The notes under the pieces: generated by a model
The model's database searches: none
Told to the model about the DNA's origin: nothing
Seen by the model: the letters and a program-made list of their open reading frames with translations, nothing else
In this document: one piece after another, positions 11,699-63,960 of the stretch
Position numbering within the stretch: position 1 is the stretch's first letter
How the letters are laid out: each line of letters starts with the position of its first letter
Made by a program: the position numbers and the translations under genes
NCBI GenBank assembly: GCA_947034885.2
Contig: OX344757.2
Location: forward strand, 8,928,001 to 8,992,000
Direction: 5' to 3'
DNA length: 64,000 nucleotides
From: Thuidium tamariscinum
Taxonomy: Eukaryota; Streptophyta; Bryopsida; Hypnales; Thuidiaceae

Positions 11699-13387
11699 AT
11701 AATTTAAAATGACAGAGCTCCCGACATTTTCAAACTATGCTCAAAAATCATACTTTGCACATAGATCTTGGATGTTTAAATAAAATTAAGTTCCTAAGCT
11801 AGAGATTTTGCATAGATCCAAGGAATGGATTATTCTTTCTTGAATGCATATATTGTTCGTACTATGACTAAAAATACAACTTATCCCTCATGGTTTCTTA
11901 ACACTTTTTAGAATTTTAGAATTTTTTTTTTTTTCCAAAAATTCAAAATTTCAACCAAATAGGGGGAGTTTGTAGTTTCTAGACAACACATAGAACACGC
12001 AATGGAACAATCCTATAATGGGCTTCTCTTGCCTTCAAATTCCTTCTAATATATAAGGTTGAAGCACCAATAGTCCATCATTTAAGTAGTTATATAACAA
12101 ATTGTGGGGAATATGAGATGGTAGAAATTTTTGCCATGTAGAAAGATAGAAAATGTAGGGATAGCTAAATTTTCATCATATTAATCCCAAAATTGAAATT
12201 ACTATGAATTTTGGAAATCAAAAAGTGCATTCCTCCAATACCCAAAGTCTATAGTCCTCTAATTTGAATTCTCCTATAACTACCTTCCACTCAACTCTTT
12301 TATTCACTACTACAAGACATGTGTCATTCCCTTTAATAGTTCCAACCTCAAAAAGGACTAAGAAAACACATTCTAAACTTTGGTTGGATATCACTCTATC
12401 CCTTGGTTGGAATTATTGCACTCATAGAAGTTAGTTATTGGATGTGGTTGACAATTGGTGCTTCTATATTGAATAGGGGTTTTCACCCCTAAAGTCCCAT
12501 TGTCTCCTTGGGGGATAAAATGGATTTTGGATAGGTCTTTATAGTCCATTATTTATCAAGTTTTTTTGAAGCTTTTTGTAAATATAGGAAAAAACATAAG
12601 ATTTGTGGGATTATAATTTTCATTTTAATTGATGCTAGAGAACAAGAGTTATGGCACAAAAGTCTTTTTTTGGATGTAGTAGGCATAAACTTCTTCACAC
12701 ATACACCCAAAAGAAATTTTAATTTATAAAAATTAGTTTCTTGTAGATTGTAATTTTATATACATAAGAAGCTTTGAACTATTCCATTTGAATTTGTCAT
12801 GTGAAAGTTATAGACAATCTTGTTTTTTGGGTAGTTACAATACCTTCGTGAAGAAATAACTTACAAATTTCATTTCTAAATGCATTTTCACAATTTAAAA
12901 AATAAATTCTTAGACATAGTTAAGTATATTTGGTAGAACAATCTTACCATTGAAATTGTTGTATTTCAATCTCATCTTAGAGTTATTAATGATTTAGTTT
13001 TTTATTCAATCTTTGACCTACTTCTATTTAACGATTTTAAAAAAATTGAAAATCAAGTGGGTTTTTTTTGGTAAATTTTATCCTAGACATTTGACTTGAT
13101 GTCTTCAACACAAAAAAATTAAATTTAAAGAGTCTAGTGCAAAAAATTTCCACAAATGAAATTGCAAGCTAGAGTTTTAAAATGCTTTTATTTTTCTAAC
13201 TTTGAATGCTAATATCTTTGAATCCATAGGGTCAAACTTTGTGAAATTCCTACTACATGACCTCAAACAAGTGAAGTGTAAGATCTTAAAATTAGATTTT
13301 GAAACAAAAAAAATTCCTTTCTTGGATGAAGGTAGCAAGAATGGTAGTTTTGAGTCATTTTTGACAAGAAAATGGCCTTGGGATTGT
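11699..13387. other. AT-rich stretch with diverged repeats
   Basis: CATAGATCCAAGGAATGG and TTCTTGAATGCATATATTGT near 11812-11855 recur at about 52348-52392, so this is an interspersed repeat. A phrase around 12300-12480 (GACATGTGTCATTCCC, CAACCTCAAAAA) recurs in altered form at 29690-29820. Segment 12600-13380 has family C-like words but no clear ends. No gene was found. Confidence 0.45.
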
Positions 13388-18099: not shown

Positions 18100-18885
18100 A
18101 TGGCGCCTCGTCTAAAACTGCCTGATAAATTTAGAGTGAAGACCTTCTGCTCTAGCCGCAATAGTCGAGGGCTTGGTGATTTGTTGCCAACAATAGAGGC
18201 TGGTGTTGTCGATGTCGCGCCGATCGATCCACCACTTGTGATCGACCTCACTTTGAACCTTGATGACATTACACACATCTCAGTCATGCAACTTTCCGAT
18301 TCTGTGGTTGTTCCTATGAATTGGCCAAGCCCATCGGAAGAACGGTGGTGTCACCTGATGGACGCAAAGATACTATTGTCTTATCTGCTTGGGGGGGGAG
18401 AGTGGACGCAAATGCAGCTGCTTACGCCTCGAAAAGGAAGAAGGTCGTTGCGAGCACGATTACATGGAGGTGGTAGGCCGTGTGGGCTTGTAAGTATACA
18501 TGGGTTGAGGGGGAGTTCGATTCGAATGGCGACTTGATCAGAGTCGTTTGCCAATGTTGCAGTGCGATCAACAGTAGGCAAAAGGTGATCGTGTCGAAGG
18601 GAGATAACTTGGAGAAGCATGAAGGAAAGAGGACATGTGTTGAGGATAGGGTGCCGTTTCCTGATCTCAAGAAGGGTGATACTTTCACCAAACTTGACTA
18701 CAAACACTTGTAGAATTGCAAGCTCTGGGCTGGACGCAAACGAGGTGGGAGCGTGGCTGACTAACTCATCGCTGGCTTGGAGGGTGAATCTAAAAGAAAG
18801 GGAGTACAATTTTCTACCTTATTTCAAGTTCGTCATCATGGTCGTCCAATGTGTGATATTTGGCAAATGTGGTTTGGCTTCTAAA
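18100..18885 (+). pseudogene. hAT transposase relic, N-terminal zinc-finger part
   Basis: From ATG 18100 the frame reads MAPRLKLPDKFRVKTF. At a run of eight G near 18391-18398 it must shift frame to continue as ANAAAYASKRKKVVAST, which contains a basic nuclear-localisation-like KRKK. A stop follows near 18472. The same frame then gives WACKYTWVEGEFDSNG, RVVCQCC and SKGDNLEKHEGKRTC, a C-x2-C...H-x4-C arrangement like the BED/TTF-type finger at the start of plant ZMYM/ZNF862-like hAT transposases. Another shift leads to TLFQVRHHGRPMCD near 18811-18860, also family-like. The catalytic part is missing. It is the same broad family as the minus-strand relic at 45-52 kb. Confidence 0.65.
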
Positions 18886-18899
18886 GGTACTTGATATGT

Positions 18900-19528
18900 G
18901 AGTACAAAAAGGAAAATGGGAAAGCTTTTTATACAAGTAGGGAGATGGAAGGCATGACAAACCATATGGGATATCTAAAATGCAGAAATTGTATTAGAAA
19001 TATTATTTTAGACCTCATTTACATATAGTAGATCAACTTTTTTTAAGAAACTTTGAACTTAAAAAGTTGACAAATCTATTGTACTTGTAGCTCTAAAAAT
19101 TAGTTTTAGATTTTAGCCTTCAAATCAAAATTTGAGAGCATTTTTGTTTACATTTCCAATCTTTTTTTCCAGTATAGTAGTATAAAAGACGTGACAGAGT
19201 CATTTTCGTGTTGAAACCGCAATGCATTACTGTAATGCAACTTCCATACATGTGACTAAACATAGTCACATAGAAGTCATTGTTGATCCTATTGAATTAA
19301 TATCATAGAACTTTGGTATTAGGAAAGTTGATTCAGTTACATGTATCACCTAGGCTCTGAAGAAAGGCTTCTTTATGAAATTCTATGCATATAGAAGAAA
19401 TGAAAGTATATGATTTCTTGGCCAAAATTATATGTTAAGCACATAAATGTGCAAAAAAATGTCATTTACTAGTCACAATTTACTTAAAACCCTTGATCAT
19501 TGTTGAAAAGTCATTTGGCCTTGAGGGA
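18900..19528. other. AT-rich stretch without a gene
   Basis: Nothing with recognisable structure was found between the hAT relic and the next family C element. Confidence 0.4.
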
Positions 19529-20461
19529 TTAACCCCTAGGTAAAGATTTTTGACTATGTTTTCACCAAAACCGCTCCAAAATTGTCATTTCTAGGACAAC
19601 TACCAAATTTTTGAAAGAAAACATTTTTAGAATAATATAACCAAAGGATCTTTTAGTGCACTTGTTGAAAAGATGTAGAAAAAATTTCAGAAAGTTTTGC
19701 TATGTAGGTTGTAAGATATTAGTGTTTGGAGTTACAAAAATCTTTTTTTACCACTGCAAAAATTTGGGCAGCTGCACTTCAAAAGGCCACATTTGTATGA
19801 GAAAATGTTCAAAATGGTTGTTATCCTTTGGATTCATTCTTCAATTCAAGTTGGCTACATGCTTGAAAATTTTCAAATAATTGGAAATTGTATAGTATGT
19901 ACCAAAAAAATAGTAGTAGAAAGAAGTAGAGAATGATTCAAAATACTAAATTGTTAACAGTTTATTTATTGAATTGAAAAATGCCAATCTAATGGTTCAA
20001 ATGTTGTAATAAACAATCTACACCCAATTTTTGTTTGTTTTTTCAAAAATATTGGAAATTGAGTAAAATAAAGGACTTCAAAGTTTATTTTGGAGTAGAG
20101 AATCCATAACTATCCACAAACTAATATTCTTCATAACTGTTGACTCATTAATCCAAATGGAATGATTCAAAGCTTTTCAAGTATATATAAATCTATGAAA
20201 CAAATTTCAAATTTTGGTTTTCCAAGAAAGTAATTTTTTCTAATCCACCCGAATTGCCCGAGTTGGGAAACAAACAACATATCATGCGATAACTTTTCAA
20301 CCATGTAGTCAAAAGTCATGAAAATTGTTGAGCTCTAAAGATACTCCTTGTCCTCACCTTCTATTAAAATTTGGTTTCAAAACATGGAAATCTCTAGTCA
20401 CACATACCTGTCCAAAATCGCTATGTTGCCAAAGAAGGCACTTTGGTCCCTTAGGGGTTAA
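19529..20461 (-). mobile_element. Family C element, copy 2, 933 bp
   Basis: TTAACCCC at 19529 and GGGGTTAA at 20461 bound it. Read on the minus strand it starts TTAACCCCTAAGGGACCAAA and continues through GGCAACATAGCGATTTTGG to GTCAAAAATCTTTACC. It has the same length as copy 3 although it is inverted and about 460 bp away. A 74-residue frame across 19656-19880 has a counterpart in copy 3 only because the DNA is alike; it is broken there. Confidence 0.88.
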
Positions 20462-20788
20462 ATTATGTACTTCACATTAGAAAAAAATTTAGCCTTTAAA
20501 AGGGACTCTTTTTCTTTGAAGAATTCCCCTCAACAAAATTTCTAGGCTCCCAACCCCTTTGGAGAACAATAGTCACTAGTCATCAATGATGGCTAGTGAC
20601 CCTATTAAAATAGTAATAAAAAATTAATGTTTTTTCTTAAAAAGGTCAAAACTTTTAAATTTTACTAGTAAAAAATACGAAGTATTAATTATTAAATAGT
20701 ATTAAAATCATTTTAAAATAATAATGAAAATAATAAAATAATAATAATCTTGGAAACAACATCTTTATATGGTTACATTGATTCCACA

Positions 20789-23349
20789 TTAACCCCTAAA
20801 AATTTAGGCATAAAAAAGTGGATGTGCCTTGGTCAACCTTGATTCTAACTTTCAATATAACCATTTTGGTATTTGACTTAAAATAAGAAAATGAAGCTCG
20901 AAAACTTTTCTTTCTATTGCAACTTAACCCCTAAAGGACCAACATGCCTTTTTTGGCAACATAGCGATTTTGGGCAGGTACGTGTGGCTAGAGATTTCCA
21001 TATTTTGGAACCAAACTTTAATAAAAGGTGTGGACAAGGAGTATCTTCAAAGCCCAACAATTTTCGTGACTTTCGACTTCATGGTTGAAAAGTTATCGCA
21101 TAAAATGTTGTTTGTTTCTCGACTCGGGCAATTTGTGCAGATCAGAAAAAATCACTTTTTTGGGAAATAAAAAATTGAAATTGGTTTTATAGATTTATAT
21201 ATACTTGGAAAGTTTTGAATCATTGCATTTGGATTAATGAGTCAAAAGTTATGAAGAATTTTAGTTTGCGGGTAGTTATGGATTCTCTTCTCTAAAATAA
21301 ACTTTGAAGTCCTTTATTTTATTCAATTTTCAATATTTTGAAAAAAAATAAAAACATTGGGTGTAGGTTTTTTATTACAACATTTGAACCATTGAGATTG
21401 GCATTTTTCAATCCAATAAATAAATTGTTACCATTTATGTATTTTGAATCATTCTCAACTTCTTTCTACTTACTATTTCTTTTCTACATGTTGTACAATT
21501 CCAAATGATATGAAAATTTTCAAGAATGTAGCCAACTTGAATTGGAAAATAAATCCAAAGAGTTGCAACCATTTTGGACATTTTTTCATACAAATGTGGC
21601 CTTCTGAAGTGCAGCTGCCCGGATTTTCGCAGTGGGAAAAAAATGATTTTTGTAACTTCAAACACTAATATCTTGCAATCTACATGGTGGAAATTTCTGA
21701 AATTTTTTCTACATCTTCCCAAAGTAGTGCACTAAAAGATCCTATGGTTATATATGTCAAAAAATGTTTTTTCTTCTGAAATTTGGTAGCTGTCCTAGAA
21801 ATGACAGTTTTGGAGCAGTTTTGGTGGAAACATAGTTGTGGTCCTTGAGGGGTTAAAATTTTGAAAAAATTCCAGAAATTGAAAAATTCATTGCAATTGT
21901 AAGTTCTATATGTTAAAATCCATAAAACACAATACATTGTCTTTTTCATTCATTTTTTTTTGAGATGAATCTTTGATTTGAATTGTAAAATTAAGTTTTT
22001 CATCAATGGTGAAAATTTATATATATTATAATCGATATAAGTTTTTTAACTTTTAACTTTAAAAGCATCACAATAATATGTAGTTTTCATCAAGCAATTT
22101 GTAGAAAGAAAATAGAATATATAGAAAGTGTAATTTTACAGTAGAAATTTTCTTATTGATGTATTAAATAAAAGTTTTAATTTGCTTTAATAGCCAAATT
22201 TGACTTTGAGGTCTTTGTTATAGTTGTTTTTGGTTCAAAAAAATTTATATTCAATTGAAAATTTTGTATAGTAAACTCCATTTGTACTTGTACCTTATGA
22301 AAAAATTGCAAGTATTTTGGATTTTTTTTGCTAATTTTATGTATTTATTTTTAATTTTTTTAAGAGAATGATAACAATTAGAATTTTTCACAAAATCAAT
22401 TGAAATTTTTATTTCAATTGATTATGTGATTTTTGTTTCAATCAAAAAATATCATACAATCAATTGAAACAAAAATATGAATTTTATATCACTAATATTT
22501 ATAGTTTCTATTCCATTTGGTCAAACATCATGCCTAAGCTAAAATTAGCATATTAGATTTTGTTCAAACATCAATCTTATGTTTTTGTTACTTGAAACTA
22601 TGAATTTTATATGACTATGACAAATTTCAAATGATTTTGAAAAAAATTCTAATTGTTATTATTTTTTCTGCAATTTTTTAATTAAATTAAAAAATAGAAA
22701 AATGATCTAGATTGTTTGAATTTTTTTCAAGAGGTGAAAATAGGAATGGACATTAGGGTGAAAAATTTCCAATTGATTATGATACTTTTAAAAGTAAAAA
22801 CAACCATGATAAAGACTTTGAAGTCAAATTCGGCTATCAAACCAAATTTAATTCTTTATTTCATAAATTTATAAAATTTTGATATTTTTTACAAGTAGAA
22901 CATTCTATATTCTACCTAATAATTTTAAAAGAATTTTTTTGATGAAAACTACAAATTATTGTGATTTCTTAAAATTAAAGGTTAAAAAATTATATCAATT
23001 ATAAATTACATTAAAATAATCTGAAATTTTTATTTTTAATGAAGATTAGAATGGAAAACTTAACTTTGCCATTTAATTTGTAAATTCATTTTAAGAGAAA
23101 AAAAATGATTGAAAAATACTACATATTGTATTCTTTGGATTTTAACAAATGAAGCTTGCATTTGCAATAACTTTTTCAATTTTTGAATTTTTTCAAAATT
23201 TCAAGTTGAATTTTGAAAGAAAACTTATCAAACTTCATTTTCTTAGTTTAAGTTAAATACTATAAATGGTTATATAAAAAATTAGAATCAAGGTTGACCA
23301 AGGCTCATCTACTTTTTGGATGCGTGTACTTTTAAAGATTAAGGATTAA
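20789..23349. mobile_element. Family F foldback element with TTAA ends, interrupted by a C element
   Basis: The left terminus TTAACCCCTAAAAATTTAGG (20789) is answered by GGATTAA at 23349. The arms are long inverted repeats: 20810-20923 plus 21857-22390 on the left against 22630-23320 on the right. Examples are CTTGGTCAACCTTGATTCTA against its complement near 23285, and the pair near 22200 and 22840. About 250 bp of central sequence holds further palindromes built on CAATTGAAA. A family C element lies within the left arm. Without it the element is about 1.6 kb. It has no coding capacity. Confidence 0.82.
20924..21856 (+). mobile_element. Family C element, copy 3, 933 bp, inside foldback F
   Basis: TTAACCCCTAAAGGACCAAC starts at 20924 and GAGGGGTTAA ends at 21856. 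The sequence on either side (…TTGCAAC | AATTTTGAAAAAATT…) is continuous in the opposite arm of F as CAACTTGAAATTTTG, so the insertion added one TTAA. The interior has the family hallmarks: CATAGCGATTTTGGGCAG, GGTTGAAAAGTTATCG, GAGTCAAAAGTTATG and TGGTGGAAACATAG. Confidence 0.9.
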
Positions 23350-23655
23350 ATCTGAAAGTTTTGGAATATTGTAATTTTTTTAATATCAATTTTTTTCAAA
23401 AAATATAATATTTTTTATAACCTTTCATTTTGTTGTTCCATAGTCTTTTAGCACTACACTTTGCTAGCCTAAAAAGGTTTTAAGAAAAAAAATTGGCCTA
23501 CATTCCCTAGTTTATCCAAAGCATCAAGGACTCACAAGCCCTTTAAGGGCTCATTTTTTTTCCTAATGATTGTGTAAATAGTCAAGCCATAATAATTTCT
23601 GTCGTATTCCTGCACCTTTCCTATGCTCTAATGTAAAAAGGACTATTTGCTAGGT
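23350..23655. other. AT-rich spacer
   Basis: No feature was found between the foldback and the CACTA-like element. Confidence 0.4.
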
Positions 23656-24142
23656 CACTACAACACGAAACTTTGTTGAAGGTGCACACTAGTTCTAAAA
23701 AAGTCACCTTGAAGTTGGTTAGAAGTCACCTATAGTTGCACAGTACAACTTCTTATGACTCACCCACGACTCTACCCTAAGCCACGGATACGTCAACACA
23801 AAAAAAATCCACATAAGCAACATTTAAATCACATCTTTTTCCTTTAGTGAACTAAAGTAATTCAATAGTTGAAGTGAAGTCACCAAATATGACTGTGACC
23901 TTATCCAAGTGTAAAAGATATGAATTGTTGATGAAAAACCGTTTACAAAGTACGATTTTCATCTCATTCTCAACTTCTAGTTGCGGCCATGACTAGGAAT
24001 TGATTCAACCACAGTTTCTAATGTCCACATTGTGCAATTAGAGAGGGACAGTCATATAGAAGTCATTTCCTCAACTCACAAAGAAGGTGCTTGTGACTGC
24101 AAGTCACCGCACAGTCACATTTTTCTCCATTTTCTTGTAGTG
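23656..24142. mobile_element. CACTA-like MITE, 487 bp
   Basis: It starts CACTACAACACGAAAC and ends TTTTCTTGTAGTG, so the terminal CACTACAA is inverted at the other end. Many GTCAC/GTGAC words recur near both ends, like the subterminal repeats of CACTA elements. The flanking trinucleotides do not match, so the target duplication has decayed. A related right end lies at 52318. Confidence 0.65.
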
Positions 24143-28049: not shown

Positions 28050-28253
28050 TCTAGTTCCAAAATGGCAACAAACTCAGTGACTACCAACCAGGCTTGAAAT
28101 CAGCAGTTATAACTTAGGTCCATCCTGTAAGAGTGCAGTACTTCAGTTAGCGTAGCTCCAGCTGAGATCCTAATTTACATGAACTCTGGTTGGAAGAAGG
28201 TGATTACCACCCTAATTATCGTATGATTAGGACAAGACATTCACTTCCTAGTA

Positions 28254-28526
28254 AGGTGGGTACACCCAAAAGCGCCCTGTTCCTAAAAGCGCCATCTACA
28301 GTGCACATACATTTCCGAAATCAGTCATGTTCACAGACTGTAGATGGCGCTTTCAGAAACTGACTTTGACTGTTAATAACTTTTGCATACGGTATCCAAA
28401 TCCTGCGTTCTTTGGTGCGTTGGAACAAGCTTTCACTTGCCAACAAGACTACATAAATATTTGAACTCATTAATAGCAGGAACTAGGCTCAGTATGAGAA
28501 AGTGGCGCTTTTGGGTGTCCCTACCT
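28254..28526 (+). mobile_element. TA-flanked (mariner-like) MITE, 273 bp, first of a pair
   Basis: The ends AGGTGGGTACACCCAAAAGC and AGGTAGGGACACCCAAAAGC (complement at right) are inverted. TA flanks both sides (28252-28253 and 28527-28528). Internal landmarks are GTAGATGGCGCTTT (twice, facing each other) and TAACTTTTGCATACGGTATC. It has the same length as its partner at 28585-28857, which is inverted. Confidence 0.87.
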
Positions 28527-28584
28527 TAAATTTACTTTGGTAGGTCTCTGAAAAGCTTGTCACTCAGACTTGGATAAGTTATTA

Positions 28585-28857
28585 AGGTGGGTACACCCAA
28601 AAGTGCCACTTATTGTTACTGTGCCTAGTTCCTGTCATCATGCTGTTCAGATTTTCATACAGTTTTGATGGTGAGTGAAAGCATGTTCCAACGCACCAAA
28701 GAACAGAGGATTTGGATACCGTATGCAAAAGTTATTAACGGTCAAAGCCTGTTTATGAAAGTGTCATCTACAGTCTGAGTACATGAATGATTTTGAAAAT
28801 GTATGCACATTGTAGATGGCGCTTTAAAGTCAGGTGCCATTTTGGGTGTACCTACCT
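28585..28857 (-). mobile_element. TA-flanked (mariner-like) MITE, 273 bp, second of a pair
   Basis: It has AGGTGGGTACACCCAAAAGT and AGGTAGGTACACCCAAAATG ends with TA at 28583-28584 and 28858-28859. Its body is the reverse complement of the first copy (GATACCGTATGCAAAAGTTA here). A 54-bp spacer separates the two. No coding frame. Confidence 0.87.
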
Positions 28858-28876
28858 TACTCTAAGTTAATCTCAG

Positions 28877-29010: not shown

Positions 29011-30019
29011 AAGGCCCCACCCTCGGGCATCCATCCAAAAAAGCCAGACAATTCACAATAAACAAGCCATCGAAAGGGTAAGCGAGCTGCAACAGTACTT
29101 TAATCAGAGGGTTAAGGTACTGCAGATCACTGATCTGCTGCTCCGCTGTCTGTGTGGCAAGGTAGGTCTGCGGGCTTTATTGGGGCTCCGCAGCAATACA
29201 ATATTGGTACTTAAAAAACTTCACTTAATGTGGCCCCCTGCAAATTTTGTATCACAATAATGCTGCTATGTGTAAGAGAGAAAAAATATATAATTTTCCC
29301 CCACTTGTGACAAACCACACCACTGGCTGGACTCTGTTTTCTTCGGAGATACAGGTTCACTTATTAGGCCAAGCTTGGCTTGCAGGAACCCAAAATTACC
29401 TGCAATGACCTGGATTAAGCTTGAGGCACCCGCCAGTAACCAATCATTTAAGCAGTTTTGGAGCAGATTGTGCGCAGCAGGAGGGGTGGAAATTTTTTAC
29501 CAGCATGTTGAAAGATGGGAAACATGGAGATTCGAAAAAAATTCACAATTTACTTCCCATCTGGAGTTGAAATCATTGTGATTTTAGGAAGCCAAAAAGT
29601 ACTCTTGACGAATAGCCAATCGGTTTGTAGTCTTCCAATTCTGATCATTGAAGAATGAATGTCCTATTCACTACTTCCTACTTTCTTGCTCACTAATTTG
29701 GGACATGTGTCATAACCTTATTACTCTCAACCTCAAAAAAAAACAAAAAAACAAAAACACTCCCAACCTTGATTGGAAATACTACACCCTTACTAGTTGA
29801 ATATTGGTGTTTCAACCTTATTGTCTATGCAGTCTTAGTTAAGATAGAAGACATCAACGCGTTAAGGATTGTCCACACCAAAATGGCCTATGATGTGGAT
29901 GACAAGCCAATTTATCAATAGGTGGATTATGTATTTACAGTTCCTTGATTCTATGACAATGTCTCAAAAGATGGGAACTAAATTACTATACACAATTCTT
30001 TCAAAGGCAATAGGGAAAG
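29011..30019. other. Intergenic stretch
   Basis: Segment 29060-29580 has average GC content and short frames without a recognised domain. Segment 29640-29820 is a diverged copy of the repeat at 12280-12480. Confidence 0.4.
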
Positions 30020-30257: not shown

Positions 30258-31083
30258 TTGAATATTGAAAGACAATCAAATAAAGCACTTATACAAAGTG
30301 TATATAAAGGCACTTTTTAGGGACCAATGTCATCCTTGCTGACCTCACTAGGTACATTGATTTTGGGAGGGACAAATGAATAGTGGTCAAATTTTTGATA
30401 AATTTGGCAATTTTTTGCCAAAAAAAAAATCTTTGTACACATAGTACTCCAAATTTTTCAAAAACTTAAAACTATCCAAAAAACTAGTAAGAAAATTATA
30501 TTGCTATACAATTGCTACCATGTTCTATTGTAAAAATTTCATTGCAAGAAAGGCTCAAGAAAGAAGTCAAAAAATATTATGCAAACAAAAACTTTGGTAA
30601 AAAAATTCACCTACATGTCTCATACATTTTATTAAACATTCTATACGGTTTTAGGTGGGACACTCTAAAAGTATAGCACAAAGGTGTATTTTTCTTTCTT
30701 CAACGAACTAATAGTATTTTTGTTTCAAGAAGTTTAACCTCCTAAACCACCAAATTGCATATTTTGCAACATAGAAATTTTGAACAACTTACTATGAATG
30801 GAAACTTTATTTCATTTCTTTGAGTTTCTTACACAATATGAAGTGAAGAAATATCTTTTAAGCATAACAATTTCATACCTTTTGATTGCATGGTTCAAAA
30901 GTTATTGTATAATATAACATGTAGTTTTTTCCCATCTAGGCACTTTAGGCAAATTTTTTAGATCACTTTTTTCATTAAAAGAAAATTGAATTTGTTTTTC
31001 TAGATTCATATATACATGGAAAAGTTTCAATCATTCCATTTTCATTAATGAAATGAAAATTATGAGGAGTTTTAGTTTGTAGG

Positions 31084-31320
31084 CAATGATGCTAATGTGT
31101 GAGCATAAACATGCGAGCATGTGAGCTTCTATTATGTATATAAATAGATATACCACAACCTTGAAGGTGTTTATGGTAAAAATACCTATAATGTAGGTAC
31201 CTATAATATAAATATACTCTTATCATAGAAGGTTTCTATAGTATAAGCACCTATATTATAGGTGCGCAATCTTTGAGGCTCATAAGCTCACACTTCTATG
31301 CTCACATACTAGCAACCCTC
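31084..31320 (-). mobile_element. Family A element, left flank of the nested unit
   Basis: CAATGATGCTAATGTGTGAG begins it and CATACTAGCAACCCTC ends it. It is about 237 bp and highly similar to the copies at 30020 and 32585. Its left neighbour TAGTTTGTAGG resembles the sequence after the other A copy (TAGTTTGCATG at 32825), not the sequence on its own right. Confidence 0.82.
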
Positions 31321-31352
31321 CAATATTCAATAGAACTTACAAATTGCATCAT

Positions 31353-32558
31353 TTAATCCCTAAAGGTTTTTGACTATGTTTTCACCAAAAATGCTTCAAA
31401 AGTGTCATTTTCAAGAGAAGTACCAAATTTTAGAGAATTTTTTTTCTTAGACACATTTACCTATAGGATCTTGTAATCTAGTTCAAGAAGATGTGGAAAA
31501 AATTTCAAAAATTTCCACCATGTAGGTTGCAAGATATTAGCATTTGAATTGACAAAAATCATTTTTGGCCTTGTAAAAAATTGAGCAATTGTACTTCACA
31601 AGGTCACATTTGTATGAAAATATGTCCAAAAATGGTTGTGATTCCTTGAATGCATGCTTCAAGATAAGATGGCTATATGCTTAAAAAATTTTAGATCATT
31701 TAGAATTGTACAATACAACTTACAGGAAAAAATATAATAAGTTGAAAGAAGTAGAGAATGATTCAAAATACTAAATTTTTAAAAGTTTATTTATAGTATT
31801 AGAAGTGCCACTCTCAATGGTTGTAATGTTGTTATAAATAATCTTACCTAATGCTTTTTTTCAGAAATATTAAGAATTGAATTTAATAAAGGACTTCAAA
31901 GTTCACTATAGAATAGAGATTCCATAACTACTTGCAAACTACCCATAAACTTAAACTCCCATAACTTTCATCTCATTTATCAAAATGGAATGATTTTAAT
32001 CTTTCAACATATATAGTGAGATAGAAATCTAATTTCAAATTTTTATTCAAGAAAAATAAAATTTAGAGAAGTTTTTCTAGGTGCCCAAGTTACCTACCAA
32101 ACAATGAAAACTACATATCAAGTAATCAACAGTGTTGGAATTTGAATTAAAAAAATGTAAGCATGTAAGCCTTGAGTATATATAAGTAGATCTCCTTCAA
32201 CTTTAGAAGGGATTTATAACACAAACATCTATAATATAGATATCCACGTGATAAATACACTATAATCATTAAAGATATTTCTATTACAGATACTTGTATC
32301 ATAGGTGTAGAGTCTTTTAGGCTCATGGGCTCACACTCTTGGGCTCATATAATAGCAACCCTCTTATACAATAACTTTTGAACTATGTAGTAAAAAGTTA
32401 TGAAAATTCTTGGGTCTTGAAGGTACTCCTTGAGCGCATGTTGTACAAAAATTTCAAAGAAAAAAAATTCCATTTGTGGTGAGTTGTTAAATATTGTAAT
32501 GTTGCCCCCCCCCCCCAAAAAAAAAAAAAAGTTTTTTGTTTGTGCCTTTAGGGGTTAA
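31353..32558 (-). mobile_element. Family C element, copy 6, containing a family A variant
   Basis: TTAATCCCTAAAGGTTTTTG at 31353 and CCTTTAGGGGTTAA at 32558 are the two ends. Read on the minus strand the interior follows the family order. A family A variant interrupts it at 32129-32363, next to the segment that reads ATAACTTTTGAACTATGTAG. A homopolymer pair (C-run then A-run) lies at about 32505-32531. Confidence 0.8.
32129..32363 (-). mobile_element. Family A variant inside C copy 6
   Basis: It ends ATAATAGCAACCCTC at 32363 and starts near CAACAGTGTTGGAATTTG. Its interior has the palindromic ACATCTATAATATAGATATC and TACTTGTATCATAGGTGTA. It is more diverged than other copies. The remnant at 24585 belongs to the same subfamily. 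Its flanking 10-mers agree only in part (about 7 of 10). Confidence 0.65.
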
Positions 32559-32584
32559 CTTCCACCTTTTTTTACTTTCCCTAC

Positions 32585-32824
32585 CAACTATGCTAATGTG
32601 TGAGCATGAACATGCGAGCATGTGAGCTTCTATTATATATATAAGTAGATATACCACAACCTTTGAAGGTGTTTATAGTAAAAATACCTATAATGTAGGT
32701 ACCTATAATATAAATATATACTCTTATCATAGAAGGTTTCTATAGTATAAGCACCTATACTATAGGTACACGATCTTTGAGGCTCATAAGCTCACACTTC
32801 TATGCTCACATACTAGCAACCTTC
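32585..32824 (-). mobile_element. Family A element, right flank of the nested unit
   Basis: CAACTATGCTAATGTGTGAG begins it and CATACTAGCAACCTTC ends it, 240 bp. It has the same orientation as the copy at 31084-31320, so the two would form direct flanks of the C element between them. Confidence 0.82.
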
Positions 32825-33434
32825 TAGTTTGCATGCTGTTATATATTCTACATTCTTAAATAAACTTTGAAGTCCTTTATTTAACTCAATTTTCAATTTA
32901 TAAAATAATCATTGGATGAAGATTATTCATTGCAACATTGCAACCATTGGTAGAGAAACTTTTCAATTTCATAACAAAATTCTTAACAATTTAGTATTTT
33001 GAATAATTTTCTACTTCTTTCTACCTACTATTTATTTCTAGTATGTTGTACAATTTCAAATGATGCTAAATTTTTCAAGCATACAACCAACTTGCCATGA
33101 AGAATGAATCCAAAGAAGCACCAACAACATATACTTTTTTTCATGCAAATAGACCTTTTGAAGTGTAACTACTCTATTTTTTGCTAGGCCAAAAAAAAAG
33201 ATTTTTTATTGATTCAAACACTTATATATTACAATGCACAAGGTGGAAATTTTGGATATTTATTTCACATCTTTTCAAACTAGCATATTGCAGGATCCCA
33301 CATTTCTATGTGTCCAAAAATGTTTTTGTATTAGAATGGTAGTTTTAGAGTGTTTAGAGTGAAAACTTAGTTAAGGAATTTAAGGGGTCAACTTCTTGCA
33401 AAATGCAATCAATTCTTAAAACAATGTTTTGAAA

Positions 33435-34388
33435 CACGATTGCTAGTATGTGAGCATAGAAGTGTGAGCTTATGAGCCTCAAAGATGATGCACCTATAGT
33501 ACAGGTGCTTATACTATAGAAACTTTCTATAATAAGAGTATATTTATACTATAGGTACCTATATTATAAATATTTTTACTATAAATACCTTCAAAGGTGG
33601 TAGTATATGGGTCATTGTAAGAAACACTTACCGGTTTGGCTCAAAATGGCTCAAAATCAGTGAGTCTTGTGAGTCTTGTGACTTTTGGAATAATTTTCTT
33701 TAAATTGAAAAAAATATGGATAATTTGAAGAGAAATGAGAATATTATGTCTCTTGAAATTCAGACCTAAATTTTTTTTTCACTAAATGTTATAGACAATG
33801 GAAAATACGATGAAAATAGCTCTTTTTTCACTAATTTGGTAAAAATAGTAAAAAAATTCAAAAAATGAAAATAGAAAATAAAATTTTCTTCCAAATAAAG
33901 GTCTTTCTTTTCCAACAAATTTCATCTTTGGAAAAAATAAATTCTATTCTCTACACTTGCGCAAAGTCAGCCACTTTGACAACATGTGGAGGTTGAATAG
34001 TATAGTATTTTCAAAAGATCTCTTTGAGGTCTTGTGTAACTTTAGGTGAGGTCCTTGCATGCCAATTTTCAGCTCAAAATTTTCATTTTTGGGTCAAAAA
34101 TAGGACTAAAATCCCCTAAAATGGCTAAAGTAGACACCCAATTGGGGGCAGTTTAAAAATAGTAAACTAATTTTGAAAGAATTGAAAATATTAAAAAAAA
34201 TGTAAAACTTTTTTAGAAACCTTCATTTCAAGTTTCAAGTCAAATGAACAAAAGATGCAAAAGTTATGAGCAAAAAACTACCTACTAAAGGTCAAGGGGA
34301 CAAAAAAAAGGATAAGTGTTTTTTGCAATCACCCATATCTACTTATATACATATTAGAAGCTCACATGCTCACACACTAGCATCGTTG
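33435..34388 (+). mobile_element. Family A element, split by a family B element
   Basis: It begins CACGATTGCTAGTATGTGAG and ends CACACTAGCATCGTTG. The 10-bp flanks are TGTTTTGAAA (33425-33434) and TGTTTTGATA (34389-34398), one mismatch. A family B element interrupts it at 33609-34334; without that and one ATAT it is about 224 bp. Confidence 0.85.
33609..34334 (+). mobile_element. Family B element, copy 1, 726 bp
   Basis: The ends GGGTCATTGTAAGAAACACT and GGGTGATTGCAAAAAACACT (complement at right) are inverted. ATAT flanks both sides (33605-33608 and 34335-34338), and removing one restores GTAGTATATCTACTT of family A. The interior carries GCAAAAGTTATGAGCAAAAA and AAGGTCAAGGGGACAAA near the right end. 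No credible frame; the 61-codon frame at 34266 crosses the element edge. Confidence 0.85.
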
Positions 34389-40798: not shown

Positions 40799-41752
40799 TT
40801 AACCCCTAAAGGACCAAACTGCGTTTTTTGGCAACATAGCGATTTTGGGCAGCTCACTACGAATGGAGTTTTTATTCTTTTTCTTTGAAATTTTCACACA
40901 ACATGCACTCAAAGAGTAGCTTTAAGGTCCAACAAGTTTCATAACTATTGACAACATAGTCAAAAAGTTATTGCATGATATGTGATTTCTTTTTATCTCT
41001 GGGCAACCTAGGCAGATAAAAAAACTTCTTTAAAAATAATTTTTTGAAAAAATGAAAAATTGAAAAAATTTATTTAGAATTTTTTGTATGCAAGAATCTT
41101 TGAATCATTCCATTTGGATTAGTGAGTCAAAAGTTATGGGGAGGTTTAGTTTGAGGTAGTTTGTGGCTAGTTACAAAATTCCTACACTACAAAAAAAGTT
41201 TGAAATCCTTTATTTAATTCAATTTTTAATACTTTTGGATAAAAATAATTGAAATAGGTTAAGATTGCTTAATACAACATTTTAACAATTGGGATCGGAA
41301 TTTTTTAATTCCATAAACAAATTGTTTATAATTTAGTGTTTTGGCTCATTTTCTACTTCTTTGTACTTGTTATTTTTTTCCTCTATGTTCTACAACTCCA
41401 AATTATTTGAATTTTTTTTTGCATATAGCCAACTTGCCTTGAAGAATGAATCCAAAGATTAACCACCAATTTGAACTTTTTTTCATACAAATGTAACCTC
41501 ATGAAGTTCAGCTGCCCGGATTTCCATACTGGTAAAAAAAGGATTTTTGTCACTTCAAAAACTAATATCTTGCAATCTACACGGCGGAAATTGATGAAAT
41601 TTTTTCCACATCTTTTTAAACTTGTGCTCTAAGAGATCCTACAGTTACTTTTGTCCCCAAATTTATTTTTCTTAAAATTTGATAGTTGTCTAAAAAATGA
41701 CAGTTTTGAAGTGGTTTTGGTGAAAACATAGTCAAAAAACTTTAGGGGTTAA
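40799..41752 (+). mobile_element. Family C element, copy 8, 954 bp
   Basis: TTAACCCCTAAAGGACCAAA starts at 40799 and CTTTAGGGGTTAA ends at 41752, one of the clearest pairs of ends. The interior has GGCAACATAGCGATTTTGGG, GTCAAAAAGTTATTGCATG and GTGAAAACATAGTCAAAAA. No coding frame. Confidence 0.9.
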
Positions 41753-42164: not shown

Positions 42165-44280
42165 ATTGGTGTGAAATTTTGACTTTTTTTCACATACTTT
42201 ATTTTTTGTTAAGCTAATTTGGTTGGTGTAAAATTTTGTTAATGTCCTTCATTCTTTATTTATTTTTAATTCCTTTTGACCCCCCTTTTTTTGCTATGAC
42301 GCTTTGGGTAGTATTAGATTTTGCTTCGTTTTTTAAACCTATATTTTTCTTAAGCCACTTTGGATAGTATTAGATTTACCTTTTTTTTTAAACCTATTTT
42401 TTCCTTAAGCCACTTTGGGTGGTTTAGTATACACACGTGATGAAAATGCTCCATAGTTATATGAATTTGATCAAAATAGAGGGCAAATCCAAGATCATAT
42501 CATACGATGGCAAGAGATTGACATTTCAACTTCAAAAATTCATAACTAATGTCACAAAAATTTGAAGCATATGAAACAATGTCATTTACATATTTTTCCA
42601 TATCTTTGTGGTAGAAACGTACTAAAAATTATTCCAAACACAATTAGTTCCTTAAACTCAATTTGCTATTTCCAAGTTCAAATTTAGTTTTATGTTGAAG
42701 TGCCTTGTACCATGAATAGTATGAAACAATGGAACTACAAGCATTCCAAAAAGAATCACCTTTCCAAATTCATTTTTATCTCTTCCCCATTCAAATTCAT
42801 TCTCATATCTCCACATTCAAATTTTGTTTCATCTAGTCATTGAAGTGATTGTTTGTACATGTTACATTCAGATCTCACATTCAATTTGTAATGATGGAAA
42901 ATGTCTTAAAGTTTTAAGAAAAGTGTTTATGGTGATTGTGAAAATCTCTCCTAGTGAGTGATGTTGGACATAGTTAGTGTGGTGGTTGATTTTATGCTAG
43001 AGTTATCGAGCTTATGAGGGCTACACATGCACCTTGGGCTAGGATTGCCTAACAAATCTAACTTACTACTTTAGAGACTATGGATACTATAGGTACCAAC
43101 GGCTCCTCATTTGCAATTGCGTGAATTTAGTGAGCTCTAAATCTTAGAACTTCTTGAATTGTGTAGGTGCTTGAAGTTTGGTTGGTTGAATTCCACACCC
43201 CTCATAGTCATGGGAGTGTAGAAAATCTTCCCGTTTGGATGACGCCACTTCTAAAGTCATGAGGGCATTCTTTTAAATGCAAGCAAGAATCCAATTTTGT
43301 ACATGGACTTGGATAGATGTCTCAATAGATGTGTAGTGGTGTTAGAGTGTTAGCATTTTTGACAGAGATATGAGCTAGCAATTGACATTAGATTGTGATA
43401 TACATTAAGAGATTTGTGATTAGCTTTTTTTGCAATACCTTTCTTTTCTGAACAAATAAATGACATTTCTTCCCAAACCTTTTCTCATACATTACTTTGC
43501 TCTTTGTATTCATTCTTTCAATTTTATCAAGGTACAAGTCACTATGAAGGCGAATGTGAATTTGAATGTGGAGAGATTGAGTTGAAGTTTTAGAGGTGAT
43601 TGTCATTGTAATGCTTTTGCCTCCATTGTTTAATATTAGTCTAAGAACCAATCTGTCTAAAGTTGAAGTGAATTTGAATGCTTATGGAGAGATTGAACTA
43701 AATTTGAATGTGGAGAGATGAGAATGAATTTGAATGAGGAAGAGATAAAAAATGAATTTGGAGAGGTGGTTCTTTTTGGAATGCTTGTAGTTCCATTGTT
43801 TCATGTTATTCATGGTACAAGGCACTTCAACATAAAACTAAATTTGAACTTAGAAATAGCAAATTGAGTTTGGGAAACTAATTGTCTTTGGAATAATTTT
43901 TAGTACATTTTCACCACAGAGACATGGAAAAATATGTAAATGAAGTTGTTTCATATGCTTCAAATTTTTGTGACATTAGTTATGAATTTTTGAAGTTGAA
44001 ATAGCATTCTCTTGCCATTGAATGATATGATCTTGGAATTGCCCTCTATTTTGATCAAATTCATATAACTATGGTGCATTTTCATCACATGTGTGTACTA
44101 AACCACCTAAAGTGGTTTAAGGAAAAAATAGGTTTAAAAAAGGAAGGAAAATCTAATACCACTCCAAGTATCATAGCAAAAAAAAAGAGTGTCAAAAAGA
44201 ATAAAAAATTTAGCCCCGAAGAAAGTGTCTAACCAAAAAAAAAAAGAGTACAAAAGAAACCAAAATTTTGCACCAATCCC
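42165..44280. mobile_element. Large foldback element (family G), about 2.1 kb
   Basis: The left arm, about 42165-42830, is the reverse complement of the right arm, about 43660-44280. Examples are GTGGTTTAGTATACACACGT against its complement near 44091, CAACTTCAAAAATTCATAAC against that near 43980, and ATGTTGAAGTGCCTTGTACC against that near 43830. About 830 bp of unique sequence lies between the arms. The outer ends fade into weak matches, so no target duplication could be fixed. The frame at 43388-43651 on the minus strand has no known domain. Confidence 0.8.
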
Positions 44281-50645: not shown

Positions 50646-51324
50646 ATTTAGAATTTCAAATATCGATCAAAAATAATAAAACTAACAACAATAATAACTA
50701 ACCATTGAATTTTCATTGATTGCTTAGGATAGAATATTTACCCAAGTCTTACCCAATTAAGTAGACTAAGTTGAATTGCCGTATTTTCTAATTACCAGAG
50801 ATTTAGGAATTAAAAGAATTACGCAATTACAATTAGATCTACATAACCTTTAGTTTTCTTTTATCAGGATAAATCTAATTGACCAACAAACGTGAGGATT
50901 AATGGATTAGATGGAGAGCCGGGATGATTTTGATGGCGAGGTTGTGGGGGAGTATTTACACATGATGATGTTCAATGACGGGACTATGGAGATTTACGCA
51001 GAGGAGGTAAACTGCTCACATTTGATTTTCATTCTCCTTGTTTTACTTTTAAGTTCCTTTTTACCAAATGCTTGGAATTAGATTTAGGCATAACATCATT
51101 TGATAAGATAAGAATAGAATAGGATTGCTTGGTTGAATTTTAGAGCAGAATAGATAGAATTATAACCACAACATTAGATTAAAATCACTTAAAACATGAC
51201 TAAAAGAGTTCATTGCTTGGAAGGCTTTCTTTTAACACCCAATTAGAAAGAAAACTCAATTAGACACAGGACCCGTGTGAAAAACTCTTAGCTCGAGGGT
51301 AGAGTTAGGAGCGCTCACACTCGC

Positions 51325-51790
51325 ACAGCTCGCAGCAATGCAAAAAAGAGCCCATTTCTGATGAATTTGGGTGCTAACACCTTTTTTCGATCTTTGAAAG
51401 GTACTCACGCCATCCACCCCAAAGCAAACCAGCTTGGAGGCTATTTCCTCCCGATTCAACCCTCCTTCATCCATCAAAGCTAATATGATGGCATTTGTTA
51501 AGTGATCTAAAGTGCCATCAGAAACACAAGACAAATGCAACAAATGTGGGACCCTCTCCCACGAGTTCATTACATAAACATGTACACCCAACCAAGAGAA
51601 ACCATCAACTGTGGTTACTTCATCTGCACTTATCGAAACAATACGCACAGACTGCACAACGCCCTTGAGAGCCTTCAGAACGACTACATGCAAATGCTCA
51701 CTAATCTCCCAACCGGCACTCTCAAACCAATGTTTTCGTCGCAAGTTTTTTACTTCTAGATGCCTCAATAAGTATTGCTTAAGGTATTTG
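51325..51790 (-). pseudogene. hAT transposase relic, catalytic-core part
   Basis: On the minus strand: YIKYLKQYLLRHLEVKNLRR, then SAGWEISEHLHVVVLKALKG, VRIVSISADEVTTVDGFSWL, VHVYVMNSWERVPHLLHLSC and GGLNREEIASKLVCFGVDGV. The ISADE and FGVDGVS segments are where the family's RNase H-like catalytic acidic residues are expected. The 170-codon frame runs into the LTR and ends there artificially. The N-terminal zinc-finger part is not found upstream. Confidence 0.85.
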
Positions 51791-52318
51791 ATGTATGTTG
51801 CAATTTACATTTTAAAGACTTTGTCACAACTTGAAAGTTGAAAGTGACTTCAAACAATATACATAGTAGCCCACGTTGGATTTCTCATGGATCAAATGCA
51901 ATTTCACTTCAATTGCTAAATGACTGAACACATAGCAGTCCACATTAGATTCAGAAGGGGTCCATCGTGACTATGTTGTGACTGCCAAATGACTGGACAC
52001 TTGGCAGTCAACGTCAAATTTATAAAAGGTCCATTGTGACTTCAAAATGACAGGCAAATGAATGGTTACATGGATGTAGCTTTAAAGAAAGCACTTTCTA
52101 GGTCAACATTTTTCATCCATTGCCCATCCATAAAGAAAAAGATGGTGATAATACTCATTTCTAAATCAGACACTTGTAGATTTTAGCCCAATGAAAATGA
52201 CTTCTAAGTGACTGTGAAGGTCACAGTCATCCAATAGTCACATTTTCAAAAAATGACTGCTAGCAGTCATTTTCCAATCATTTTTCGTAGTTACGTTTAT
52301 CCCTATTTTCTTGTAGTG
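51791..52318. repeat. CACTA-like element remnant (right end)
   Basis: It ends CTATTTTCTTGTAGTG at 52318, the same end as the element at 23656-24142. It carries many AGTCAT/AATGACTG and GTGACT words. No left terminus was found, and its left side lies against the hAT relic. Confidence 0.5.
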
Positions 52319-57095: not shown

Positions 57096-57102
57096 TGTTT
57101 AG

Positions 57103-57827
57103 GGGTCACTACATGAAACACTTACTCTATTGGGGTCAAAATGGCCTATTTCAATAAGTCCTTTGACTTTTGAAATAATTTTTTTAAAATAAAAATAAAA
57201 TATGGATAATTTTAAAATAAACGAGAACATTATGTCTCTTAAAATTCAGACCTAAGAAAATTTAACCCTAAAAGTTATGCACAAAAAAAAATGGAAAATA
57301 CAATGAAAATAGACACTTGGATGTTTGATTTTTGAAATAGTAAAAAAATTCAAAAAAATAAACTAAAATAATCTATTTTTCTAACTTAAAGATTCTCTTC
57401 TTAAATCATTTTCATCTTTGGAAAAAATTAATTGTGTTCTCTACATTTGCATAAATGTAGTGTACTTTGAGCACATGTAGAAGTTGGATGGTTTAACTAT
57501 TTTCTTAAATCTCTTTGTGGGCTAAGTTAACTTTAGTAGAAGTTCCTTCTTATTAATTTTGAGATAAAAATTTGCATTTTGGGGTCAGAGATAGGAACTA
57601 CCCCCCGTCCCCTAATGATTCAATCAAGGGTTGTTTAAAAATAGGAAAATAATATTTATAAATTTCAAAAAATGATATAGTTTTATAGTTATCTATAGTT
57701 ATTTATGTATAGTCATTTCAAGTTTTTAATAAAATAGACATATAATGAAAAAGTTATGATTAAAAAACCATATGTCCAAGGCTAAGGGGACAAAAAATAG
57801 TACAATTGGTGTTTCTTGCAATCACCC
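57103..57827 (+). mobile_element. Family B element, copy 3, 725 bp
   Basis: It starts GGGTCACTACATGAAACACT and ends GTGTTTCTTGCAATCACCC. TTAG flanks both sides (57099-57102 and 57828-57831). The interior text follows copy 1 (GGTCAAAATGGCC, TATGTCTCTTAAAATTCAG, GAAAAAGTTATGATTAAAAA, AAGGGGACAAAAAA). No gene. Confidence 0.85.
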
Positions 57828-57831
57828 TTAG

Positions 57832-61325: not shown

Positions 61326-62982
61326 TTAACCTATAAAGTTCTTAGACTATGTTTTTCCAGAAAAAAACACTCTAAAACTACCATTTCTAGTACAAGAGGC
61401 TAGATTTTAGAAAAAAATATATGTAATTGTAGGATCTTGAAGTATGGTGGTTTGAAAAGATGTGGAAAAAATTTCAAAATTTTTAACCATGTGGATTATA
61501 AGATATTAGCATTTAAATTGATAGGAATGTTTTTTTTGCCTTGTAAAAAACAAGGTAGTTGCACTCTACAACAAGACATTTATATGAAGAAATGTCCATG
61601 CTAGTAATGCTTCTTTAGTTTCATTTTTCTAGGTAAGTTGGCTATATGCTTGAAAAATTTTAGATCATTCGGAATTATACAACATATAGGAAAAAAATTG
61701 TAAGTAGAAAATGATTCAAAATATTGAAGTGTTAAGAATTTATTCATAGAACTAAAAAATCCCAATTCCAATTGTTGTTATTCTATAATAAAAAATCTAT
61801 ATCTTCTGATTGTATTTTTTTGAAGAAATATTGAAAGTTGAGTTAAATAAAAACTTCAAAGTTTATTTAAGAGGAATGGGTACTTGCAAGAAACACTTCA
61901 CATTTTTGTCTCAAAAATGTTGTTTTGGGGCATAGTACTGGTAGTATTATGCAATCATGACAATATAGTGTGTTTGATGCACGCCTACAAATCTCAACCG
62001 TCGATTTTAGGCGCCTGCAAATCTAGGCCGTCAGTTTAGTATTATGTAGTACTATTCAGTATTATAAACTACTACAAAATACTTCACAAGCCACATGGAG
62101 CAAAAAATAGCAGAAAAAGGGACTGCAGACATTTTTATTTTTAATAATTCAATAAAAAATCAAATTTTAAAAAAAATCCATTTTTCTAAAAAAATTGTGC
62201 ATACATTGCAACAAAAAATTGCTCTAAATTTTTTTTCCCTCTTCGTAGCGTTTGTGCAAAGGAAGGTCATTTTGACCCCATGTGGACAATAGACATTTTA
62301 CTATTTTCATAAAAACTCACCGTCAATCCTTGAAATGTTAGTAGACCTCCAACTTGTCCAATTTGTGGCTTCAAATTCGAAATTTTGAGTAAAAAATATG
62401 ACTAAAACCCCCCAAAATGGCCAAGGTAGATAGCCAATCGGGGGCAATTTATAAATAGTAAAATAATTTTAAAAATATTGAAAAAATTATAAAACATATA
62501 AAACTTTTGCGTACATATTCATTCCAAATTTCAAGTTGAAAGGGCAAAAGATGCAAAAGTTATGAGCAAAAAACTACCTAGTAGAGGTCAAGGGGACAAA
62601 AAAAAGGACAAGTGTTTCTTGCAATCACCCAAATCCATAATTGTTTGCAAACTAAAATCCTCATACCTTTCATCTCATTAATCAAAATGGAATAAATCAA
62701 AGATTTCTACATATAATGAAAAAATTCAAATTTCTGTTAATGAAAAAAGTGATATTTTTGGATCTACTTGGATTGTTTCCCTAGCAAAGAAATTACATAA
62801 TCATACAATAAAATTTTAACCATGTAGTTAGACTAAAGTTATGAAAATTGTTGGGTCTTAAAGATATTCCTTCTCCACATGCTGTGTAAGAACTTAAGAA
62901 AAACAAATATAGATTGCATTCATAGTAAACTATCCAAGATTTCTATGTTGCCAAAAAATATGGCTTAGTCCTCTAAGGTTGA
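61326..62982 (-). mobile_element. Family C element, copy 9, split by family B copy 4
   Basis: The left end is TTAACCTATAAAGTTCTTAG and the right end TAGTCCTCTAAGGTTGA, both diverged. The two parts, 61326-61877 and 62631-62982, join at GAGGAAT/AAATCCATAATTG, which in intact copies reads as AGAGAATCCATAAC. It is inverted relative to copies 3 and 8. Confidence 0.75.
61878..62630 (+). mobile_element. Family B element, copy 4, 753 bp
   Basis: It starts GGGTACTTGCAAGAAACACT and ends AGTGTTTCTTGCAATCACCC. The flanks are GAAT (61874-61877) and AAAT (62631-62634), one mismatch. The interior carries AGATGCAAAAGTTATGAGCA and GGTCAAGGGGACAAA as in copy 1. The 65-codon frame at 62095 is not conserved in the other copies. 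Confidence 0.83.
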
Positions 62983-63960
62983 AAACTTAGCTCACTTACT
63001 TATGACTTCATAGACATGAGGTGGATTTTTTGAGCTCAACCAAAATTGTACTTGATTTCTAAATCTTTGTGTTCTTGTAGGGAGAGCTCTTGTCCATCCG
63101 ATCTAGATAACAAGAGTTGCATTGGTAGGAATATAGTTTGCCTAAACTAAAGAATGAAGACAAGAAGACCTACAATTGGTCTAATTGATCATGTTGATAT
63201 TTTTTATGGATCATCTCTATAATTAAAGTAGATCTTGCTTTGACTAGTAGCATCTTATTGTTACATAAAAGTCTCAAGTATTCTCTTATGGTTAAAAATT
63301 TGAGTAACTTAGTCATATTGTACTTTGTACATGAGACACATATAGCCTTGACTCAATGGCTTTCATGATGCCACCATGGCACTCTAGTCGGTGTGGTATG
63401 TAGTCATGGGTTCAAACTTTGGCATTCATTCAACTTTGATTGGGACAAATGATCTCATTGTTATATAGAGACCTAAAAATTCCTTAGGAAAAACATTGCA
63501 AGTTCTACTTCTTCAGTGAGATTTTAAGGATGGAATTTACTATGAAAATTACATAGTTGACTCATCATTCTTAACTCCCAATAGATGCTTTATTCATGTT
63601 GATATTGTACACTAAAGTTAAAACCTTCTTTTCCTAGGTTGAGGTAGAGCGGTCCATTACCGTTTGTTTCCTAAATCTGTCACCCTATATATTTGATGCC
63701 AATTGCGTCCACACCGTCATGCAAATTTCCTCGTTTTTTGAACAATTTCAATGCATTATACATTTGTACGATTTGATTTAGGAAAAAAAACAAATTTGCT
63801 TCATAAAGACAACTACATACCAATGTACTTTAATCATAGTCAAAACACACTTAAAAAGGCTTGGACATTTAAGGATTAAGTTAACATCTGATCAATTAAA
63901 TGACCTCTTTCTTATTGAATCATTTTTTTTTACTCAAATGAAACACACTTTCATCGCATT
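62983..63960. other. AT-rich stretch without a gene
   Basis: No domain or repeat boundary was recognised before the window-edge repeat. Confidence 0.4.

Follow-up and report, generated by a model that had tools for sequence, protein, structure and literature searches.

A TTAA-target element, very probably of piggyBac type, nested in an inverted pair of TTAA elements within a CACTA transposon

Organization of the locus

The window analysed in this study is a stretch of 64,000 nucleotides (C9:8928001-8992000) from a 363-Mb genome of 19 contigs, and the whole genome was searched for sister copies. The central feature is X, a CACTA (EnSpm) transposon copy at 18858..24142, which is devoid of its first ~734 bases and is interrupted by two members of the element family C. 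The first of these, C1, is a TTAA-target non-autonomous element on the plus strand at 20924..21856. It measures 933 bp including both TTAA copies (20924..20927 and 21853..21856), the element proper lies at 20928-21852, and its ends, read inward, are CCCCTAAAGGACCA and CCCCTCAAGGACCA. An initial annotation of this DNA had placed a 933-bp C element in the left arm of a foldback, and this was found again at the same place. The second, C2 (19529..20461, minus strand, TTAA at both ends), lies ~460 bp upstream of C1 in the same CACTA element and is 87.5% identical to it. The target of C2 in X at 19519-19532 (CCTTGAGGGATTAA) itself resembles the end of a TTAA element, so C2 may have inserted at the border of an older one.

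CACTA / EnSpm plant transposons carry CACTA termini and produce a 3-bp target duplication. The 3' terminal inverted repeat of X, CACTACAAGAAA, is found at 24131..24142 on the minus strand. Similarity among the sister copies spans ~18856 to 24142 and stops at TTTTCTTGTAGTG, the complement of CACTACAAGAAA. Four sister copies with extended flanks have CACTACAAGAAA on both sides, 4107-4224 bp apart (~4.2 kb), and all four are bordered by 3-bp duplications (TTA, AAT, TAG and TTG, read by eye). The copy of X in the window aligns with X from base 735 onward only, so its 5' end is missing and its own target duplication is not visible. No stop-free frame of at least 180 codons was found inside the four X copies, which fits a non-autonomous element, and X is apparently of this kind. 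Further, 51914-52318 (minus strand) matches the first 407 bases of X with a perfect CACTACAAGAAA at 52318, forming a second X-type 5' end in the window.

The foldback at 20789..23349, with C1 in its left arm, consists of two inverted copies of a TTAA element, S, and both of its outer ends are S 3' ends. S as taken from L069 matches 20789-20925 (minus), 21853-22408 (minus) and 22513-23331 (plus), ending exactly at 20789. It therefore runs along the left arm on the minus strand and along the right arm on the plus strand, and the two copies stand head to head; no inverted self-match was found within S. Twelve stretches were fetched for S, of which ten shorter related loci (L067-L076) were tabulated and two (L077 and L078) were excluded as parts of X-type copies. 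At the ten loci S is present, whole or in pieces, as a free-standing element of about 865 bp. Five of them (L067, L068, L069, L071 and L073) have clear TTAACCC ends on both sides; in the remaining five, one end or both are truncated or diverged.

The foldback had been annotated initially as an element of its own, and this did not hold at this locus. The sister copies share sequence beyond both 20789 and 23349 and end at the CACTA termini, which makes the foldback internal to the CACTA transposon. Independent movement of the foldback as a TTAA element would agree with its S-type outer ends, with S being a free-standing TTAA family and with the readable left ends in the sister copies (TTAA in 19 of 20 and TCAA in one). 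The shared flanks speak against it, and a search with the joined flanks gave no match across both of them among the 40 scored of 116 candidates; 12 matches pass the junction by 19 bases, the window's own copy included, and represent chance extension. Independent movement was thus rejected for this locus on the shared flanks and CACTA ends, and we consider it unlikely. The layers are C1 within the S-S pair within CACTA X, and C2 in X outside the S-S pair.

Self-alignment of the foldback arms

The arms of the foldback were found to continue on either side of C1. On the outer side, 20789-20914 and 23215-23342 pair over 128 columns with 83% identity; on the inner side, the alignment of 21853-23204 to its reverse complement spans 1414 columns at 68%. 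The missing segment was located by dynamic programming in which C was not assumed, with excision starts from 20829-21188 and all ends up to 22300. The five best excisions are tied at a score of 526, compared with 169 for the arm alignment without any excision. All of them are 929 bp long, one C length plus one TTAA as the initial annotation had anticipated, and they start at 20924, 20925, 20926, 20927 and 20928, five tied registers being expected from a 4-bp direct repeat. The neighbouring lengths of 928 and 930 bp score 523 and 525, so the length is not sharply set by the alignment alone; it is set by the agreement of the best gap with the ends of family C, which were defined independently. 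With C1 removed, the arms agree in 82 of the first 100 inner columns and in 40 of the last 50 outer columns. The arm alignment score is 147 against a mean of -12 for a random-segment control, of which only the mean is usable as the control may contain the query itself (maximum 203, above the 147 of the arm).

The counterpart of the C1 site in the right arm lies at 23195..23208 on the minus strand and reads CAACTTGAAATTTT, the same string as previously noted. It carries TTGA in place of TTAA and is therefore a near-empty site. Hence, the presence of a filled and a near-empty site in one molecule was borne out, and the right arm as a strict empty target was not. Likewise, C is a TTAA-target element with TTAA on both sides as claimed, but one filled/empty pair does not fix a 4-bp duplication of TTAA, since a 2-bp TA duplication, made by an A...T element with a preference for TTAA, would look the same. 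TTAA as the duplicated unit is suggested by the counts of C ends together with the piggyBac evidence, both described below, rather than by base-by-base proof.

Unoccupied sites in sister loci

The copies of X elsewhere in the genome give stronger proof of the insertion of C1 than the self-alignment does. With the inner foldback as query, 893 first-look candidates were obtained, 40 were scored and 29 loci besides the window were examined. The C1 site is spanned in 24 of the 29 loci, and C is present in none of these 24. The initial annotation had named host copies devoid of TTAA at this position as evidence against the insertion; the empty site reads CAAC-TTAA or GAAC-TTAA in 21 of the 24 covering loci, the exceptions being L032 (CTAA), L049 (GTAA) and L042 (shifted). 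A looser script count places L042 with the TTAA group and gives 22. These sister loci are not all independent because L053 and L054 are one element, and L056-L058, near-equal in score, seem to be copies of a single segment. The empty C2 site is covered in 22 of the 29 loci and reads TTAA in 17 and otherwise in five.

The right-arm site is readable in 24 of the 29 sister loci, where TTGA was counted by eye in 14, TTAA in nine and TTTA in one. TTGA being the commonest form, the TTGA of the window is probably an old variant of the arm, and at the time of the C1 insertion the right arm may have offered no TTAA target. As an exact empty target it was rejected. Loss of a former C from the right arm by precise excision was also considered, since excision by piggyBac is footprint-free according to an excerpt of PMC8086355. 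This is extremely improbable, as C is absent from the aligned site in all 24 readable sister right arms, TTGA is the commonest form there (14 of 24), and the two arms differ by 17-32%, far above the about 4-5% that separates C1 from its nearest copies.

A third and weaker pair was found within the window. When the flanks of the C copy at 40799-41752 are joined, they match 12096-12415 with 68% identity over the junction, and this old relative is without C and reads ATAG at the expected TTAA. A shorter match of the same flanks at 29612-29718 likewise has no TTAA. Both show unoccupied relatives of the site and give no confirmation of TTAA.

Copies, ends and age of family C

The window holds about ten copies or fragments of C, whose lengths vary more than those of the best copies in the genome. 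Besides C1 and C2, a full-length copy lies at 40799..41752 on the plus strand. A further C copy at 31353..32558 (minus strand) contains an insert of ~210 bp at 32152-32363, and both copies have TTAA at either end. Of the C ends in the window, 17 are readable; TTAA stands at 13 of them, and the other four are one base off (TCAA twice, TTGA and TTCA). With at most one mismatch allowed, the string TTAACCCCTAAA was counted 12 times in the window, where 1.01 occurrences are expected, and none of 100 shuffles reached 12. A scan for inverted repeats between TTAA pairs was unselective (19 pairs for TTAA, compared with 61 for AATT, 89 for TATA and 36 for ATAT).

The genome search with C gave 9865 first-look candidates and 42 listed matches, from which 20 full-length copies were fetched. 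These were picked as the best full-length matches to C1 including the TTAA; they represent a young C1-like subfamily and the sample leans towards intact TTAA ends. With this in view, TTAA was present at all 20 of the 5' ends and at 19 of the 20 3' ends (one CTAA), that is at 39 of 40 in all, and the bases outside it were mixed. The copies measure 932-935 bp, start with CC at 19 of 20 5' ends (one TG) and finish with GG at 19 of 20 3' ends (one AG). The inverted repeat of C, CCCCTAAAGGACCA, is perfect over 13-15 bp in 17 of the 20 copies, usually over 14 bp, and over 0, 1 and 4 bp in the other three, and its terminus is CCCCT. The 5'-end pattern of C has 1608 exact matches genome-wide, and the reversed pattern used as control has none.

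The longest stop-free frame in the C consensus is 91 codons. C shows no coding capacity and has many copies of homogeneous length, and it is a MITE in these respects. Among the frames of the window, Pfam gave no transposase (best E 0.05 for 10 frames and 0.01 for 63 overlapping frames). Rfam at the gathering threshold gave no match, C had no match in the viral contigs scanned or in the genome contigs scanned, and the titles listed in a literature search with terminus strings were unrelated.

The mean pairwise identity of the 20 copies and C1 is 95.5%, and C1 itself is 95.0% identical to the others (best 96.0%). The sister CACTA copies that cover most of the query are ~82-88% identical to the window copy. 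C1, at ~95-96% to its relatives, therefore postdates the divergence of the CACTA copies.

The counts of ends bear on the type of the element. The 929-bp gap equally fits a TA duplication by an element ending A...T, and C might accordingly be a TA-duplicating (Tc1/mariner-type) MITE, or a 3-bp PIF/Harbinger-type one, that merely prefers TTAA. This is quite improbable, as 39 of 40 ends in the 20 C1-like copies and 13 of 17 window ends keep the outer T and A, a 3-bp reading gives unequal ends, and piggyBac transposase sequences are numerous in this genome. Kolobok is another superfamily that duplicates TTAA, which agrees with C. Its termini are given as 5'-RR...YY-3' in the part of PMC9587614 consulted, in contrast to the CC and GG of C, and the plentiful piggyBac sequences also speak against it. 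The assignment to Kolobok was rejected on the termini and we hold it to be very improbable.

Other repeats and reading frames in the window

Another C copy (30734-31083 and 32822-33391) is split by a block that encloses the C copy at 31353-32558. The block carries two ~235-bp direct repeats with 95% identity, at 31084-31321 and 32583-32821. This 235-bp unit, D, is possibly a repeat of the LTR/TRIM kind, and it recurs at 13538, 30019 and 33425. A separate repeat family is present at 61873-62635, 33603-34337 and 57097-57830. Its ends are near TTGCAAGAAACACTT and AAGTGTTTCTTGCAATCACCC, and it interrupts the C copy at 61326-62984. The region 28250-28861 is a 612-bp near-palindrome, about 80% self-complementary, and 42262-42834 and 43690-44209 form an inverted pair, ~860 bp apart, with about 90% identity over 519 columns.

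A 182-codon frame at 51259-51804 (minus strand) has 25 relatives without a named function and no Pfam match. The copia frame at 149-745 is plant-like. Among the best 120 of its 1005 relatives, those with a named organism are angiosperms (up to 61%), and the others reach 85%. A land-plant host is the best reading of these relatives.

piggyBac transposases in the genome

The genome was found to be rich in piggyBac transposase sequences. The PF13843 profile gave 659 candidates, and all of the 116 that were scored lie over the Pfam cut-off, with scores from 275.7 down to 244.9 bits; none of 14 control genomes gave a match. Many of the 116 are free of stops over the matched part, and others contain one to three. 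An open frame of 1023 codons without stops is common to eleven loci. Two such copies, with 99.955% identity over 4463 bp, diverge exactly at TTAA with the end CCCTGAAACGCCGG (complementary end TTAACCCTGAAACGCCGG); this is the one TTAA boundary read, the 5' end of both copies being outside the fetched stretch.

The 1023-aa protein matches Pfam DDE_Tnp_1_7 at 5.1e-79 and, in the PDB, piggyBat (9c0f) at 1.1e-27 and the 6x67 transposase, presumably Trichoplusia piggyBac, at 1.1e-22. Its three aspartate blocks, which we take to be catalytic, align to those of piggyBat. Of 80 homologues, the three closest (64-68%) are metagenome proteins; those named to an organism are from insects and fishes at ~24-33% identity, and none is from a named plant.

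The sampled transposase-bearing element ends with CCCTGAAACG, which is similar but not equal to the end of C. A transposase-bearing element with C's own ends was not found in the genome loci looked at. The one piece inspected downstream of another transposase has other TTAA-CCC ends, and C's end is absent from it. At L081:729-780, on the downstream side of another piggyBac transposase, ~4 bp separate a TTAA-CCC end (768) from a new TTAA-CCCC start (773), which suggests side-by-side TTAA elements.

Origin of the nested insertions and comparison with known systems

The TTAA target and the inverted ends of C, taken with the abundant piggyBac transposases, point to C as a piggyBac-type element. 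Very probably it is a non-autonomous (MITE-like) member of this type, nested in the S-S pair in CACTA X. The accessible part of PMC2872659 gives as the piggyBac hallmark TTAA together with an inverted repeat of 12-19 bp that carries CC[C/T]T. The repeat length of C agrees with it, and the end CCCCT, not strictly CC[C/T]T and different from CCCTGAAACG, counts against the assignment; the same part of that paper reports CCCCT for one coral piggyBac MITE family. Against the TTAA rule itself stand the sister sites that are not TTAA (3/24 for C1 and 5/22 for C2), the four of 17 window ends that are one base off, the ATAG of the third pair and the match at 29612-29718.

Most likely, a transposase of the piggyBac family that is encoded elsewhere in the genome would have cut C from another locus and joined it at a TTAA in the left arm of the inverted S-S pair inside X. 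Gap filling would then have left TTAA on either side of C1, and the same course at a second TTAA upstream would have given C2. Since no transposase gene with C's ends was found, we infer the donor of the enzyme to be one of the genome's piggyBac transposases, acting by cut and paste.

On a wider scale, the host is probably a living piggyBac system in which more than 100 transposase sequences (116 scored of 659), some of them near-identical and stop-free, drive TTAA MITEs (C, with S and others) in more than 1000 copies, a degree of piggyBac success otherwise tied to animals. It is similarly probable that these MITEs nest in one another and in CACTA elements. The locus illustrates cleanly how nested transposons can be ordered in layers from a single sequence, the sister copies serving as controls. 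Moreover, piggyBac, known mostly from work on animals, seems to be plentiful and to have been copied recently in this plant-like genome, which would provide a natural setting in plants for tests of piggyBac transposition, the partnership with MITEs and silencing.

The occurrence of piggyBac elements in plants is stated in excerpts of PMC10140906 and PMC8086355, and PiggyBac is counted among seven MITE superfamilies of angiosperms in the consulted part of a plant review (PMC10004981). The portions seen of two genome papers list 1230 PiggyBac entries in a fern draft genome (PMC6890710) and one entry in a grass genome (PMC8319324). Among the listed titles and abstract openings of the open-access literature on land plants, including gymnosperms, ferns and bryophytes, none describes a plant genome with many intact piggyBac genes. 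Hence, the piggyBac MITE kind is already known, and the abundance of piggyBac in this host is the surprising part.

In comparison with known systems, X is similar to CACTA / EnSpm plant transposons in its CACTACAAGAAA ends and 3-bp duplications, whereas its size of ~4.2 kb, its apparently non-autonomous nature and the inverted pair of TTAA element S which it bears set it apart. C and its host resemble the piggyBac superfamily (6x67 and piggyBat 9c0f) in the TTAA target, the short inverted repeats and the genomic DDE_Tnp_1_7 transposase. On the other hand, C is non-coding, and the sampled transposase is of 1023 aa with named relatives that are from animals and only about 24-33% identical. The closest likeness is to the coral MITEs (CMITEs) of Acropora, as far as these are described in the accessible part of PMC2872659. 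Like C, these are non-coding elements with TTAA duplication, short CCC... inverted repeats and empty-allele evidence. Nested TTAA insertions are known in corals from the same source, the CMITE-IN case of Acropora being one of TTAA elements nested at TTAA within other TTAA elements, as here. C differs from the CMITEs in its length (~933 bp against ~100 bp) and its plant-like host, and shares its CCCCT ends with one of the coral families.
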